64,000 bases of DNA from contig JAJQGJ010000024.1 in assembly GCA_021200565.1 (NCBI GenBank), forward strand, positions 1 to 64,000, in the 5' to 3' direction. Positions 5,118 through 64,000 of the stretch are shown here, piece by piece (position 1 is the stretch's first letter; the number at the start of each line of letters is the position of its first letter). Both the position numbers and the translations under genes were made by a program. Below the pieces are notes generated by a model. It saw nothing but the letters and a program-made list of their open reading frames with translations, had not been told where the DNA came from and ran no database searches. The DNA comes from Oscillospiraceae bacterium. Lineage in GTDB: Bacteria > Bacillota > Clostridia > Oscillospirales > Ruminococcaceae.

Positions 5118-5146
5118 TGTTTTTACTTTACCCGAAGGGTGAAGTG

Positions 5147-5281
5147 TCAGCATCCGCAGCTGTTGCAGCTATTGCAGCTGTCGCAGCTTGAGCATCCGCA
5201 GTTTCCATTGCATGCAAAGAGAATGATGAGGATGAGGATGATAATCCACCAGTAGCCACTGAAGCATGATGAGCAGTTCAT
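5147..5281 (-). CDS. 44-aa Cys-rich single-TM peptide
   Basis: Minus-strand translation MNCSSCFSGYWWIIILILIILFACNGNCGCSSCDSCNSCNSCGC*; AAAGGAGAC SD about 7 nt upstream; absent from ORF track because <60 aa. Confidence 0.8.
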   Translation of the reverse strand: MNCSSCFSGYWWIIILILIILFACNGNCGCSSCDSCNSCNSCGC

Positions 5282-5409
5282 AATCTGTCTCCTTTAAGAA
5301 TTATTAAAGCAAGCGTCTTGCTTATAGTTCAGTTTATTCGGAAGCAAGAAATGTGTTACTGGTTACTGTTTATTGTCCCACCGGCATATCTTTAGAATGT
5401 CGGTTTTGT

Positions 5410-5450
5410 ATTCGCAGTGTAAGACCGTCTGCGCTGCGAATCGCCGACGG
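5410..5450 (+). ncRNA. candidate structured leader (H-type pseudoknot) upstream of clp
   Basis: ATTCGCAGTGT (5410-5420) pairs GCGCTGCGAAT (5431-5441); loop CCGTC (5425-5429) complements GACGG (5446-5450). Confidence 0.45.
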
Positions 5451-5519
5451 CAAATGAATATTCAAGAAAAAACTGTCAAAGCTTGAAATAGAATATCAGA
5501 GATAGTGAGGCAAATTACA

Positions 5520-7841
5520 GTGACCAATTTTGATAGAGCATACCCCTCATCCGACTTCACCGACGAGGCGCTTGCAGCGATAAGACAGGCGATGAACTCA
5601 GCGATGGATTCAGGACACACCTACGTCGGCACCGAGCATCTCATACTGGCTTTTTTGAAGGATGAGAATTCCGCCAGCGAAATCCTTTCAAGCTTCGGCG
5701 TCAGCTATCAGGCTGTCAGTAAAAAGATATGCGAGCTTGCAGGAAAGGGAACCAAGCGCACAAGCCTTGATGTCGATTCGTTCACCCCCGCCGCAAAACG
5801 CTGCCTGAAATTCGCAAGAAAAACAGCGTCTGATCACGCCAGACCGAAAGCCGGAACCGAGCATATCCTCTATGCTATTTTAGGTCAGCAGAATTCGACA
5901 GCCGGCTGTATCCTGAGCGAGCTCACCGGCAACTCCTCCCGTATATTTGCCGCAACAGCAGACCTCATCGAGCGTGACAGCCGTGTTCAGTCTTCGTTTC
6001 ACCCGGAGCGCAAAGCTCCGAATCTCGAAAAGTTCGGTTTCGATATGGTCAGGAAAGCGAGCCTCGGCGAGTTCGATCCGTGCGCAATGCGTGATGCCGA
6101 GATCGAAAGAATTATCGGAATCCTGCTTCGACGCCAGAAAAACAATCCATGTCTCGTCGGTGAAGCAGGAGTCGGAAAAACCGCAGTCGTCGAAGCCCTT
6201 GCCGGGAGAATTGCCGATGGAAACGTCCCCGAACAGCTCAGGAATGTGAGAATATATTCACTCAGCCTGACGCAGCTTTTGGCGGGAGCGAAATACCGTG
6301 GCGATTTCGAGGAACGCCTGAAATACTGCATAGATGAAGCGGCAACCATCGACGGCATCATCTTATTCATCGACGAGATTCATATGCTCATAGGAGCAGG
6401 AGCGGCGGAGGGAGCAATCGACGCCGCAAATATCTTAAAGCCTATGCTTGCCCGAGGCGAAATCCGTGTAATCGGAGCCACAACCTTTGACGAATACCGC
6501 AAAACTATAGAAAAGGACAAAGCGCTTGACAGGAGATTTTCGCTGGTTCACATAAACGAGCCTGATGAAGAAACAGCCATCACGATGCTCACTCGCCTCA
6601 AACCAAGCTACGAGTCACACCATGGCGTCAGAATAACCGATGAAGCGGTAAGAAAGGCAGTCGAGCTTTCAAGCCGCTGTATTCCCGACAGATATTTGCC
6701 GGATAAGGCTATCGACATTCTGGACGAAGCCTGTTCATCTGTCAAGCTTAGCAGCTTTGCAAGAAGGCAGAGCATGAGAAAATCTGATAATGCGCTTGCC
6801 GGAATAACCGCAGAGGGACTGACAGAGCGCTATCTGAGCGAACTAAGCAGCCGCATATCCGTCCCGACGGTAACCGGCTCAGATATAGCAAGGTGCATAG
6901 CTTTACAGACTTCTGTTCCTGATGAACGGGAGATCATCACCGGCATCTCCCATATCGAAAGCGTTCTGAGGACCCGTGTCATAGGTCAGGACGAAGCCAT
7001 TGCAGAGGTCATAAACGCTCTCAGGCGTTCCGGCTCCGGACTCCGTGACAGAAGCCGCCCGATAGCAACTCTGATGTTTTCAGGACCCACAGGAGTAGGA
7101 AAGACCTCGCTTGCAAAAGCTGTGTGCGAAGCGCTATTCGGAAGTGATGACAAGCTCATCCGTCTTGACATGTCCGAATTCTCCGAGAAATACTCGCTTT
7201 CCAGACTCATCGGTTCTCCTCCCGGCTATGTCGGAAGCGAAAACGGCGGCGAGCTCACTGAAAGAGTCCGGAAGTCTCCATGTAGCGTAGTTCTCTTCGA
7301 CGAGCTTGAAAAAGCTGACCGTGATGTCATCTCGATACTTCTTCAGATTTGCGACAACGGCAGCCTCACCGACTCCCAGGGCAGACACGTCTCGTTCAGA
7401 AATACAATAGTAATCATGACTACAAATGTCATGAGCACTAAGTCGACATCCTGCGGCTTCATCCCAAGCGAAGGTTCAGACCGCACCGCTCTTGCAAGAC
7501 AGTTCTCAAGCGAGCTGATAAACCGAATCGATGCCGTCTGCTGCTTCAACCGGCTTTCAACAGAATCCTGCAAAGAGCTGACAAGGCAGATGCTTTTACA
7601 GCTGTCGAAGCGTGCATCTTCAGCCGGTGTCCGCCTCAGCTATTCCGACGGCATAGAGGATTTTATTCTCTTAAAATCATACACCCAGGAATTCGGTGCA
7701 CGGGAGCTAAGGCGTGTCATCATGACTGAAATTGAAAACCCTCTTGCCTATGAACTCTCAATAGGCAGAAGAGGGGAGCTCATGTGTGAAATAAATAACG
7801 GCAAGGCTCTTTTCAGAAGAAGCCTCACCGTTTCTGCATAA
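5520..7841 (+). CDS. clpC: ATP-dependent Clp protease ATP-binding subunit, ClpC/ClpA type
   Basis: Clp_N repeats; two AAA+ modules [14 protein letters not shown] and [27 protein letters not shown] start at 5520 or 5505. Confidence 0.88.
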
Positions 7842-60113: not shown

Positions 60114-61283
60114 ATGAAACCGAAAAGAATCCTTTCCGCAGCCATAGCGTTTGCCATATCGGTAACGGCTTTGACCTCCTGCGGAAGCACTTCGCACCCC
60201 GACCTATATGCCTATGATGAGGATGCACCCTCACTCTATGAAGCCTTTTCGCAGTGGTTCAAGGTCGGAACAGCCATGAACACAAGCGACTTAGTAGAAG
60301 GCTCAGAAGAGATGGAGATCCTTATTAAGCAGTATAACATCTTCACTCTCGAGAACGAGTCGAAGCCGGAGAACATCCATCCGTCCGAAGACGTCTACAA
60401 TTTCGAAGCCCTGGACAAGCTAGTTGAGTTCGCCAACGAGTATGACAAAACCGTCCGTGGACACGTTCTTGTCTGGCACTCTCAGTGCCCCGACTGGTTC
60501 TTCTATGACTACAGCAGCGATGCTGCTGGCGGCAACACCGTCTCGGCAGACGTCCTCATCGAGCGGATGAAAGAGCACATCACGACAATAGTCAGCCACT
60601 ATAAAGGTGAAGTTGACGTCTGGGACGTCGTCAACGAAGTTCTTGGTGACAATGGCGGACTCAGAGATTCCATGTGGTACCAGATTATCGGCGATTATGA
60701 TGGCGACGGCGACAAATACGACTATATCGAAATTGCCTTTGAGACAGCCCACGAAGCCGACCCGGACGCCAGGCTCATCATCAACGACTACAATCTCGAA
60801 TGGTCAGAAGACCGCACCATCACTATGTACATGATGGTCAAGAGTATGCTCGAAGAAGGGATTCCCATCGACGGCATCGGACTTCAGATGCACATCGACA
60901 TTGATTTTGACGTCGAAACCTGCAAGAATAATGTTGAGATTCTCATGAAGCTGAAAGACATCGACCCTGATTTTGTAATCGAAATCACCGAGCTTGACCT
61001 GAGCTGCTACTCCTGGAGTGACGAATCAACCGACATAGAGCTTACAGATGAGTTTGTCGAAATGTTCGACAGCCTCTATTCGGACATTTTTGAAATGTTC
61101 ATTGAATTCTCCGAAGCGGGATACCTCGACTCGGTTGTGATGTGGGGCTATAATGACGGCATGAGCTGGCTCAACGGCTATCCCGTCTCCGGCAGAACCA
61201 ACTATCCGCTCCTGATTGACCGTGACTACAAACTCAAATCAGCCTATTGGAGCCTGATAGACTTGGCGACAGCAAAATCCTGA
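60114..61283 (+). CDS. GH10 endo-1,4-beta-xylanase lipoprotein
   Basis: Lipobox ALTSC; GHVLVWHSQCPDWFF; WDVVNEVLGDNG; ITELDLSCYSW. Confidence 0.93.
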   Translation: MKPKRILSAAIAFAISVTALTSCGSTSHPDLYAYDEDAPSLYEAFSQWFKVGTAMNTSDLVEGSEEMEILIKQYNIFTLENESKPENIHPSEDVYNFEALDKLVEFANEYDKTVRGHVLVWHSQCPDWFFYDYSSDAAGGNTVSADVLIERMKEHITTIVSHYKGEVDVWDVVNEVLGDNGGLRDSMWYQIIGDYDGDGDKYDYIEIAFETAHEADPDARLIINDYNLEWSEDRTITMYMMVKSMLEEGIPIDGIGLQMHIDIDFDVETCKNNVEILMKLKDIDPDFVIEITELDLSCYSWSDESTDIELTDEFVEMFDSLYSDIFEMFIEFSEAGYLDSVVMWGYNDGMSWLNGYPVSGRTNYPLLIDRDYKLKSAYWSLIDLATAKS

Positions 61284-61287
61284 CAAA

Positions 61288-61324
61288 AAATGACCCGGCA
61301 TTACCTGTCGGGTCAAATTATTTT
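61288..61324. terminator. intrinsic terminator between xylanase and brnTA
   Basis: TGACCCG/CGGGTCA with flanking A and T tracts. Confidence 0.8.
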
Positions 61325-61517
61325 ATCCTGCTTGTTTTGTCATTGACATCCGTCTATTTCTTTGAACCACGGAGGACTGAAACGCCTTTATCATTGCAGG
61401 CGAAAGCTCCGGGCAGTCTTCATCAAACACAATCGGCTTTTTCGCTGCCGCCCTGATTTCTTCACGCTGTTCATCAGTCAACGGCTTCAACTCTTCAAGA
61501 GTTACTGTTTTGGTCAT
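61323..61517 (-). CDS. brnA: BrnA-like antitoxin
   Basis: MTKTVTLEELKPLTDEQREEIRAAAKKPIVFDEDCPELSPAMIKAF; directly downstream of and overlapping brnT. Confidence 0.78.
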   Translation of the reverse strand: MTKTVTLEELKPLTDEQREEIRAAAKKPIVFDEDCPELSPAMIKAFQSSVVQRNRRMSMTKQAG

Positions 61518-61779
61518 AATAAAGTCTCCTTTCAGTTGGGGTTGCAATTCTTGCGGAAATCAGTCTTATTGATTCTTTTCGTTCGGTAAATACGACAAAC
61601 AGTACGTCGTCAACTTTGCCTATAGCCATATACCTGTCTTCATCAACGCTGTGCTCGAAATCGTACATCTCAATGTAGTAAGGATCATTGAAGACGAGTG
61701 AGGCTACCTCGAACGAGATTCCATGTTTTTCCTTGTTGATTAAGTTCTTGTTTTCATCCCACTCAAATTTCATCGTCAT
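61495..61779 (-). CDS. brnT: BrnT family toxin
   Basis: MKFEWDENKNLINKEKHGISFEVASLVFNDPYY..RYMAIGKVDDVLFVVFTERKESIRLISARIAT. Confidence 0.92.
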   Translation of the reverse strand: MTMKFEWDENKNLINKEKHGISFEVASLVFNDPYYIEMYDFEHSVDEDRYMAIGKVDDVLFVVFTERKESIRLISARIATPTERRLYYDQNSNS

Positions 61780-61945: not shown

Positions 61946-61974
61946 TTGACAAACCTCAGGTTTGGTGTTATCAT
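61946..61974 (+). promoter_or_regulatory. surface-array promoter 1 TTGACA-17-TATCAT
   Basis: Exact -35, 17-nt spacer. Confidence 0.85.
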
Positions 61975-61979
61975 AGATA

Positions 61980-62008
61980 TGGTTTTATACCAGAATATAT
62001 TTTGGAGG
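61980..62008 (+). promoter_or_regulatory. surface-array leader 1 with two alternative hairpins
   Basis: TGGTTTTATACCA overlapping CCAGAATATATTTTGG-AGG. Confidence 0.65.
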
Positions 62009-62015
62009 AATTCTA

Positions 62016-62732
62016 ATGAAAAAATTTGTATCAATCGCTCTTGCGATCATCATGATGCTTTCTGTAAGCGTTTCTGTTTTCGCTGTAGATGATGACTATA
62101 TCAACAGCGTTGCAGCTGAAGTCCTTTCCGAGTATGAGCCTCTCTTCCCGATGGACAACGGCTGGTGGACTGAAGATTCTGATCTCGGCAGTTCTACCGA
62201 TGCTGGCGTTGCTTTTGCAGAGGCTATTTTGACCGACGGAGCCAAGATTGTTATCAAGGCTGACGCTGCTGCAGGTTCCACCGAGGATGGCTGTGGTTAC
62301 CAGTATGGCATCCAGACAACCGACACTTGGGTAATGGTTCTTGCTCACTTCAACTATCCTGATGAGGGCGCATGCATTGCTGAGGAAGTTGTTGTTGAAG
62401 GCGACTATGCTTACATCATCATCGATGCAGCTGAGTTTGTTGATGCTCTTACTGCTAACGACGTCGATCTCACTGTTAACACTTGGCAGTGGATCTTTGG
62501 CGCTTGCTCTGGCGCTAAGACCTATGGCGTTTATGTAATCACCACTGGTTCTTCCTCTGACGATTCTTCTGCTGAGGCTGAGACCGAAGAGGCTGAGGCT
62601 TCCTCTGAGTCCACAGAAGCTTCTTCTTCCGAAGAGACCTCTTCCGCTTCTTCTCCTGACACCGGCGTTGCATTGGCACTTCTCCCGATGGCTCTGGCTG
62701 GCATCGCAGTAGTTAGCTCCAAGAGAAAGTAA
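62016..62732 (+). CDS. secreted surface protein, array member 1 (PDTG-type sorting tail)
   Basis: Signal MKKFVSIALAIIMMLSVSVSVFA; Ser/Glu/Ala-rich stalk; SPDTGVALALLPMALAGIAVVSSKRK. Confidence 0.9.
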   Translation: MKKFVSIALAIIMMLSVSVSVFAVDDDYINSVAAEVLSEYEPLFPMDNGWWTEDSDLGSSTDAGVAFAEAILTDGAKIVIKADAAAGSTEDGCGYQYGIQTTDTWVMVLAHFNYPDEGACIAEEVVVEGDYAYIIIDAAEFVDALTANDVDLTVNTWQWIFGACSGAKTYGVYVITTGSSSDDSSAEAETEEAEASSESTEASSSEETSSASSPDTGVALALLPMALAGIAVVSSKRK

Positions 62733-62751
62733 TTTCTCCTTAGTTTAAAGG

Positions 62752-62788
62752 TCGAGGCGTTCCCGCTCAGGGTACGCCTCGATTTTTA
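62752..62788 (+). terminator. intrinsic terminator after array member 1
   Basis: TCGAGGCGT/ACGCCTCGA followed by TTTTTATTTT. Confidence 0.88.
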
Positions 62789-62812
62789 TTTTCACAAACG
62801 CGCCTTTTTCGG

Positions 62813-62841
62813 TTGACAAACGCTTTCCGAAATGGTATTAT
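62813..62841 (+). promoter_or_regulatory. surface-array promoter 2 TTGACA-17-TATTAT
   Basis: Exact -35, 17-nt spacer. Confidence 0.87.
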
Positions 62842-62846
62842 AAATA

Positions 62847-62875
62847 TGGTTTTGAACCAAAATATATTTTGGAGG
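62847..62875 (+). promoter_or_regulatory. surface-array leader 2
   Basis: TGGTTTTGAACCA overlapping CCAAAATATATTTTGG-AGG. Confidence 0.65.
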
Positions 62876-62882
62876 AATTGAA

Positions 62883-63521
62883 ATGAAGAAATTCGTATCA
62901 ATCGCTGTCGCACTCGCAATGGTTCTTTCCCTGAGCATCGTTGCTTTTGCTGACACCACAGTTGCTTCAACAGAAATCACTGTTTCCGGCAGCTACACCA
63001 TTGACATTCTCGACGGCGCTGACTTCACCGACGAGACTCTCTATCTCTACATCTACTTCTCTCTTAACGATGATAGCAAGGCTGGTTGGGGACCTGCAGG
63101 TCTTTGCTCTCCTACTGACGGCTCTGTAAACTGCATCGGTTACCAGTCTCCTGGCGGCTATGAGCTCACTGCTAATGCTGACGGCTATGTTTGCTTTGCT
63201 CTGACCGACATCGCTGCTGCTTTCGAGGCTGCTGGCTTTGATGCAAATGATGGTGTTATCCTTAACTGGTGGGAAGCTGAATACTGCACTCCTCTCAGCG
63301 TTGCATTAGTTTCCACTGATGACAACTATGCTGTCGCTGAGGAAGAGACCACTGAGGCTGCTGAGGAATCCGCAGAAGCTGCTGAGGAGACCACTGAGTC
63401 CACAGAAGCTTCTTCTTCCGAAGAGACCGCTTCCGCTGCTTCTCCTTCCACCGGTGTTGCTCTCGCTCTCGTTCCGATGGCTTTGGCTGGCATCGCAGTA
63501 GTTTCTTCTAAGAGAAGATAA
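62883..63521 (+). CDS. secreted surface protein, array member 2 (PSTG-type sorting tail)
   Basis: Signal MKKFVSIAVALAMVLSLSIVAFA; stalk; SPSTGVALALVPMALAGIAVVSSKRR. Confidence 0.9.
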   Translation: MKKFVSIAVALAMVLSLSIVAFADTTVASTEITVSGSYTIDILDGADFTDETLYLYIYFSLNDDSKAGWGPAGLCSPTDGSVNCIGYQSPGGYELTANADGYVCFALTDIAAAFEAAGFDANDGVILNWWEAEYCTPLSVALVSTDDNYAVAEEETTEAAEESAEAAEETTESTEASSSEETASAASPSTGVALALVPMALAGIAVVSSKRR

Positions 63522-63541
63522 TCACTTTTCTGTCATAGATC

Positions 63542-63574
63542 AAGACCGCAGGCTTCGGCTTACGGTCTTTTTCT
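63542..63574 (+). terminator. intrinsic terminator after array member 2
   Basis: AAGACCG..CGGTCTTTTTC with inner GC-TTCG-GC. Confidence 0.85.
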
Positions 63575-63606
63575 GTGTAAATTTTCAGTAAATTTCGAGA
63601 ATTCGG

Positions 63607-63635
63607 TTGACAACGACAAAAGATAGTGGTATGAT
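63607..63635 (+). promoter_or_regulatory. surface-array promoter 3 TTGACA-17-TATGAT
   Basis: Exact -35, 17-nt spacer. Confidence 0.86.
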
Positions 63636-63640
63636 AATAG

Positions 63641-63669
63641 TGGTTTTATACCAAAATATATTTTGGAGG
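63641..63669 (+). promoter_or_regulatory. surface-array leader 3
   Basis: TGGTTTTATACCA overlapping CCAAAATATATTTTGG-AGG. Confidence 0.65.
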
Positions 63670-63677
63670 AATTCTAA

Positions 63678-64000
63678 ATGAAGAAATTCTTATCAATCGC
63701 TGTAGCACTCGTTATGGTTCTCTCCCTGACTTGTGTTGCTTTTGCTGATGTATCAGTCGATGTTAGCGGCATTGACACTGCTTCCAGCTGGGACACTTAT
63801 GGCGCATCCTATGAGGATGATTCTATGGTAATCTCTCTCGATGACATGAACGCTATTGTTGAAGCTATGAGCGAGGAGGGCTCTGTAATCGTTTACACCC
63901 TCACCAACACTGCTGGTTGGTTCCAAGTTGGTTTCAACTCTGATTCTGCAGCTTATTCCAACACTGGCGATCCTGACGGTACTGGCGGCTATATCGCTTA
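63678..64000 (+). CDS. secreted surface protein, array member 3 (truncated by window edge)
   Basis: MKKFLSIAVALVMVLSLTCVAFADVSVDVSGIDTASSWDTYGASYEDDSMVIS..; open to end of window. Confidence 0.85.
   Translation, partial: MKKFLSIAVALVMVLSLTCVAFADVSVDVSGIDTASSWDTYGASYEDDSMVISLDDMNAIVEAMSEEGSVIVYTLTNTAGWFQVGFNSDSAAYSNTGDPDGTGGYIA

Follow-up and report, generated by a model that had tools for sequence, protein, structure and literature searches.

Tandem cassettes for predicted surface-anchored proteins in gut Oscillospiraceae keep constant ends and appear to exchange their exposed domains between species

In the genome of an Oscillospiraceae bacterium we found a tandem array of short genes for predicted surface proteins, each with its own expression signals, near-identical export and anchoring ends, and a divergent exposed domain. 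We lean toward reading this array as a chromosomal display locus, the fixed ends of which act as homology arms and the exposed domain of which is replaced from related species. The analysis began with a window of 64,000 bases, namely the first part of contig C7 (84,643 bases) in a genome of 2.18 Mb and 24 contigs. A preliminary description of the window had proposed that domains are swapped among fixed export, anchor and expression modules; this proposal is well supported by comparison of related sequences, where tree incongruence and cross-species mosaic breakpoints give it firmer backing than the window by itself could.

Results

Layout of the array

The contig carries exactly four members, three of them in the window and one downstream. 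(The preliminary description had counted at least three; the fourth was reached by reading on along the contig, past a pair made up of a PIN gene and a small ORF.) The first three, M1, M2 and M3, are consecutive and all lie on the + strand, and each has its own promoter, leader and near-identical signal peptide. The features of the locus are as follows.

60114-61283, + strand: GH10 xylanase lipoprotein, the upstream neighbor (Pfam PF00331, 289 bits; synteny)
61323-61547, - strand: candidate BrnA-like antitoxin between GH10 and the array, adjoining BrnT, with no Pfam match
61495-61779, - strand: BrnT-type toxin (PF04365, 93.6 bits; cut-off 34.5)
61946-61974, + strand: promoter of member 1 (TTGACA-17-TATCAT, TG-extended; promoter scan), 86-100% identical at the same position across four sister species
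61978-62015, + strand: leader of member 1, array-specific, with the 16-nt near-palindrome CCAGAATATATTTTGG at 61990-62005, which overlaps the GGAGG of the ribosome-binding site
62016-62732, + strand: member 1 (type A, 238 aa), with signal peptide, a mature domain rich in aromatic residues and poor in Lys/Arg, acidic linker and SPDTG signal
62652-62729, + strand: sorting signal of member 1, SPDTG followed by a hydrophobic stretch and KRK (NF033846, 16.7 bits, under the cut-off of 23.5)
62746-62788, + strand: terminator of member 1 (-28.5 kcal/mol, z -7.3)
62813-62841, + strand: promoter of member 2 (TTGACA-17-TATTAT; promoter scan)
62845-62882, + strand: leader of member 2, specific to array genes, with the palindrome CCAAAATATATTTTGG at 62857-62872
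62883-63521, + strand: member 2 (type B, 212 aa), with signal peptide, predicted beta-sandwich mature domain and SPSTG sorting signal
63441-63518, + strand: sorting signal of member 2 (NF033846, 18.9 bits, under the cut-off)
63542-63574, + strand: terminator of member 2 (-16.8 kcal/mol, z -4.3)
63607-63635, + strand: promoter of member 3 (TTGACA-17-TATGAT; promoter scan)
63639-63677, + strand: leader of member 3, specific to array genes, with its palindrome at 63651-63666
63678-64000, + strand: member 3 (type C), truncated where the window stops; the contig copy is complete to 64325 (215 aa, SPATG)
Contig C7, 65263-65982: member 4 (type D), beyond the window and flanked by PIN/antitoxin-like pairs
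Contig C7, 64464-65134 and 66117-66795 (L019:3465-4135 and 5118-5796): PIN/antitoxin-like pairs on either side of member 4

Every member consists of a TTGACA-17-TATNAT promoter, signal peptide, acidic linker, a tail formed by SPxTG, a hydrophobic stretch and KRK/R, and a terminator. The three cassettes with TTGACA-17-TATNAT promoters that had been described in the window were recovered as such, all three promoters matching at 11 of 12 positions, carrying an extended TG and ranking as the top three promoter matches of the region. Sequence comparison of M1-M3 likewise bore out the repeated leaders and near-identical signal peptides, the repetition extending over the first ~70 nt of the coding starts. 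The tail shared by M1 and M2 also held up: SPDTG or SPSTG is followed by a common hydrophobic and basic end, VALAL[LV]PMALAGIAVVSSKR[KR]. From SPxTG to the end, the tails are near-invariant in M1-M4, and the mature regions of the same four proteins align poorly. Each of the four is followed by a terminator hairpin, with energies of -16.8 to -28.5 kcal/mol and z scores of -4.3 to -8.5.

The array occupies one site in part of the genus

Eleven of 31 genomes of the genus (G000 and G006-G015) contain the array, in each case at one syntenic site and with two to four members; the contig of G010 ends within the array. The site has the order DUF3810-GH10-[BrnTA]-array-asnS (most genomes have BrnT, a BrnA-like gene or both) and continues downstream as asnS-DegV-HD-YicC-gmk. 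Members occur in the orders A-B-C-D, A-D-C, A-B-D, D-B, D-D-B, D-B-D and D-B-B-D. (Note that all genomes compared are draft assemblies, with one genome per species.) Flanking proteins are ~85-98% identical, with GH10 and CDF lower in some genomes, and array members are 46-77% identical apart from one partial match at 91%. Homologs are found across the clade, and in the more distant genus members G001 and G025 this location or its vicinity holds similar anchored genes that lack the array leader. Searched against 199 and 299 family genomes, respectively, the A/D and B profiles hardly occur beyond the genus, the rare matches there being weak and partial.

Exposed domains match those of other species

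Comparison of the arrays across genomes indicates that tip domains are exchanged between species and that the ends are kept. The sister species G007, G008, G012 and G013 are 96-98% identical in asnS DNA and form a clade with support of 99/99. At matching positions in these four species, promoters, leaders and tails are 86-100% identical (mostly 96-100%), as against 49-75% for the mature domains, and position 1 holds a type-A domain in G012 and a type-D domain in G013 within the same frame. The best match of a mature domain from the sister clade usually lies in another species, for which asnS identity is about 84-87%. In particular, G008-A best matches G006 (91% DNA), G008-B matches G014 (87%), G008-D matches G015 (84%) and G012-B matches G010 (84%); G007-D pairs with G000-D in the tree with support of 100/99. 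Forcing the four sisters together in the type-B tree costs 133 log-likelihood units, and an origin of the type-B domains in that single clade is rejected (p-AU 3.3e-15); asnS, for its part, keeps the clade at 99/99.

All five genes tested have informative sites that fall into runs of the type frame-donor-frame, with one switch near codons 1-20, in the signal peptide, and another in the linker or tail. Judged from the sequences, this pattern is what one would expect if the exposed domain had been replaced through homologous recombination within the conserved ends. Point mutations arising independently, also considered, fail to account for the donor-specific matches.

A leader palindrome and biased codons set the array genes apart

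Each array member is preceded by a leader of ~35 nt that carries ACCANAATATATTTTGGAGGAATT and contains the 16-nt palindrome. The leader pattern had 34 matches in the 11 array genomes, exclusively at array genes, and 0 in the other 20 genomes of the genus; the reversed pattern, used as a control, gave one match. Among 33 aligned leaders, 13 of the 16 palindrome columns are invariant and the remaining three account for five changes in total. Four of these five arm changes are A to G, which G-U pairing would survive, an observation that is suggestive only. In the form CCAAAATATATTTTGG the palindrome overlaps the ribosome-binding site, and a GGT..ACC dyad precedes it, the ACC being common to both.

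The leader was also considered as a strong RNA hairpin. Folding gave only -3.8 to -8.5 kcal/mol (z -0.8 to +0.4), and these weak energies and z scores leave a stable RNA structure unsupported. The leader palindrome suggests that some shared factor acts on the array genes, and the element may be a DNA operator or a translation element. At the array loci inspected, no regulator gene was found between GH10 and asnS.

The remark that Ala, Val and Ser codons differ from the rest of the window, in keeping with high expression, was correct. The fractions of GCT, GTT and TCT are 0.77, 0.66 and 0.50 in the array versus 0.23, 0.25 and 0.12 in the other window genes, a bias like that of fusA and rpsL. 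CAI values for the array are 0.67-0.76, compared with 0.70 for fusA, 0.70 for rpsL, 0.84 for tuf and a window mean of 0.50 (s.d. 0.08); the PIN genes between cassettes have the lowest values (0.29-0.33). By this measure the codon usage of the array is that of highly expressed genes.

Predicted anchoring and composition of the exposed parts

Array proteins have the general features of sortase substrates, that is, a signal peptide, xPxTG, a hydrophobic segment, a basic end and a sortase in the genome. The search for a sortase returned six sortase-domain matches in the genome; two adjacent sortases on contig C18 resemble class B (TIGR03064, 113 and 115 bits, under its cut-off), and C9 has at least two of class C. 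A sortase recognizing SPxTG probably links the array proteins to the cell wall. These proteins resemble the Rumino_NPXTG proteins (NCBIfam NF033846) of Ruminococcus-like bacteria in having [N/S]PxTG, a hydrophobic stretch and a basic end, but differ from them in using S rather than N at the first motif position, and the four members score 15.5-18.9 bits, below the curated cut-off of 23.5. Other proteins of the same genome have NPTTG with the same hydrophobic tail.

Lysine and arginine are rare in the exposed parts. Of the 5707 residues that lie from residue 24 to the sorting motif in 33 array proteins, 54 are Lys and 18 are Arg (1.3% together), and the type-B exposed parts contain 2 Lys and 0 Arg in 1702 residues (11 proteins; arrays L019 and L070-L079); the mature domain of member 2 has one Lys and zero Arg before the sorting motif. 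The mean for Lys plus Arg in window proteins is 10.7%, and low values (0.7-3.4%) are likewise seen in the other proteins of this genome that carry an anchor. Trp makes up 2.3-3.7% of the mature domains versus 0.6% of window proteins. A possible reason for the low Lys/Arg content is that sites for trypsin are avoided in a gut bacterium.

The mature domains are of several types

The mature domains had been described as clearly different, and this is not simple allelic drift: profile comparison of the mature parts relates A to D with 90.7% probability and C to D weakly (35.6%), and detects no relation of B to the others. In AF2 models M2 has a beta-sandwich core at residues 40-148 (pLDDT 70-90), and the M1 model is of lower confidence. 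The best sensible Foldseek match of M2 is CBM65 (4afm; prob 0.90, E 0.027, TM 0.31-0.47), which is marginal; the fold search with M1 gave nothing above prob 0.33. Scans of the mature regions found no Pfam domain and no significant sequence or profile match to CBM65, and no solved PDB chain matched the mature domains in sequence. The suggestion that the domains are carbohydrate-binding-like is therefore weakly supported, through the modest-confidence beta-sandwich and the marginal CBM65 match of M2. M2 resembles CBM65 of E. cellulosolvens Cel5A (PDB 4afm) in its predicted beta-sandwich; unlike that enzyme module, the array proteins stand alone and are predicted to be anchored.

Type-B domains have the invariant motifs DFTDE and LNWW. 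In related genomes the same domain is the ectodomain of zinc-ribbon Ser/Thr kinases with one TM segment (L083:2889-6041, L084:2479-5640 and L086:4876-7956; 1026-1053 aa), the C-termini of which are 38-47% identical to the type-B domain (profile match, 99.6% probability); there, unlike in the array, it is the receptor part of a membrane protein. No such kinase ectodomain was found in the window's own genome. Type-B domains also occur in a 3053-aa protein and in a 528-aa anchored protein of related genomes, and recurrence in these three settings suggests a reusable ligand-binding domain. (The 3053-aa protein of G009, L088:4158-13319, has repeated type-B-like and type-D-like domains.) We prefer the reading that the displayed domains are ligand binders, probably of glycans.

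Toxin-antitoxin-like genes lie between cassettes

Altogether the arrays hold 11 PIN genes, each followed by an ORF of 70-80 aa, with no lone PIN gene; this constant pairing is as expected of a toxin and its antitoxin. Three such small ORFs occur without PIN (extra or lone, in three arrays). PIN2 matches PF01850 with 32.8 bits (cut-off 23.6) and PIN1 scores below the cut-off, at 18 bits; the small ORF beside PIN matched no known family. When the PIN genes were run through PADLOC, only weak partial matches were returned (E 1e-4). The PIN pairs are diversified too, and are sometimes closest to those of another species (G006 with G014, 90% DNA). They would be passengers or stabilizers of the locus.

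Discussion

We envisage the locus as producing two to four short, strongly expressed proteins that would be exported by Sec and attached to the wall by sortase, the acidic linker holding the domain outward. The block of promoter, leader and signal peptide and the block of linker, tail and terminator, both near-constant, would act as homology arms, so that the exposed domain of 110-160 residues could be swapped by homologous recombination with DNA of related species and without any change of position, expression or anchoring. The exposed domains would be small beta-sandwich binders, most likely of a polysaccharide or another ligand in the gut lumen, and pressure to diversify, exerted by substrate, phage or host antibody, may sustain the exchange. 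We entertain, more tentatively, a wider form of this idea, namely a shared platform of cassette exchange in which co-resident species draw domains from a common pool, the likewise diversified PIN pairs mark or stabilize slots, and the tips are almost free of Lys and Arg so as to survive gut trypsin.

The closest parallel is the Mga locus of S. pyogenes (mrp-emm-enn), which also has tandem signal-peptide genes with sortase-type anchors and divergent exposed parts, and where homologous recombination between members and strains yields chimeras (PMC6952200, PMC9993116). The array works like mrp-emm-enn yet is unrelated to it, and we claim no sequence homology. Its mature domains are predicted by AF2 to be mainly beta rather than coiled coil, its genes are marked by a shared leader palindrome with no regulator gene seen, putative toxin-antitoxin modules lie between the cassettes, and exchange is between species of a gut commensal genus. 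Surface arrays with conserved ends and variable middles are already known, then, and this one is a variant outside the streptococcal family. A literature search returned no direct match for the array, for toxin-antitoxin-linked hypervariable surface loci or for Lys/Arg-depleted surface proteins.

The streptococcal M locus is described as being under diversifying pressure from host immunity (PMC9993116). By analogy, the exposed domains of the array might have no essential ligand and instead be abundant decoys or receptors turned over by phage or antibody, with interspecies exchange supplying the variants. Replacement of whole exposed domains between constant ends is the pattern of the M locus, and the very high expression that codon bias implies and the putative toxin-antitoxin modules in the same locus are in line with it; the invariance of DFTDE and LNWW and the reuse of the domain in kinase ectodomains suggest instead a conserved binding role. 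Searches of viral contigs with A3 and A4 turned up neither a phage ligand nor a relative, a negative that bears only weakly on phage involvement; a phage origin was likewise considered and set aside. On balance we regard such antigenic or phage-receptor variation as possible but doubtful.

The placement of the array next to a xylanase, pointed out in the window, raises the idea that its proteins are CBM-like docking factors that hold xylan near the GH10 lipoprotein and that their diversity tracks that of xylans. GH10 does adjoin the array in 10 of 11 genomes, and the marginal CBM65 match and the aromatic enrichment agree with such a role. G013, however, keeps the array without GH10 (L077, 9262-9823), so that the neighbor is nearly but not fully constant. 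Moreover, GH10 has neither the array leader nor a strong codon bias (CAI 0.53), and is thus not driven by the array's signal; we consider a xylan-utilization accessory unlikely.

Two further explanations dispense with interspecies replacement, and we find both less likely than replacement itself. Old tandem paralogs might have undergone birth and death with gene conversion of their ends, each lineage having started with many copies and lost different ones while conversion evened out tails and leaders. The A and D members are clearly paralogous, leaders and tails are alike among paralogs within one genome, and G014 has two type-B and two type-D copies. Against this, sisters differ in domain type or allele at one position inside promoters and tails that are 96-100% identical, and cross-species domain matches of 84-91% DNA are similar to, or higher than, those species' asnS identities, so that birth and death would need many separate losses and conversions, which makes it distinctly improbable. 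Alternatively, the mosaics might stem from short-read metagenome assembly that joined co-resident species at conserved leader and tail islands, which we find very improbable. In its favor, the related genomes are SPAdes-style MAG contigs where titled, and between sisters divergent blocks are interspersed with islands of 200-300 nt that are 95-100% identical. Against it, donor and recipient leaders share only ~30 identical nt in a row, presumably short for assembly k-mers; even the best donors match the recipient domain at 84-91%, never identically; and many assemblies with different names, as well as every one of the tested genes, show the pattern.

Under the favored reading of domain replacement from related species, the array shows commensal species trading surface domains at a fixed locus, in gut Oscillospiraceae that are mostly uncultured, and makes for a clean case that lends itself to testing. 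The locus brings together several families of orphan domains, a regulatory leader peculiar to the array and putative toxin-antitoxin modules set between the cassettes, and may be regarded as a natural display scaffold of interchangeable domains that are nearly without trypsin sites. It also lets one ask what drives the surface diversity of commensals, be it diet, phage or antibody.
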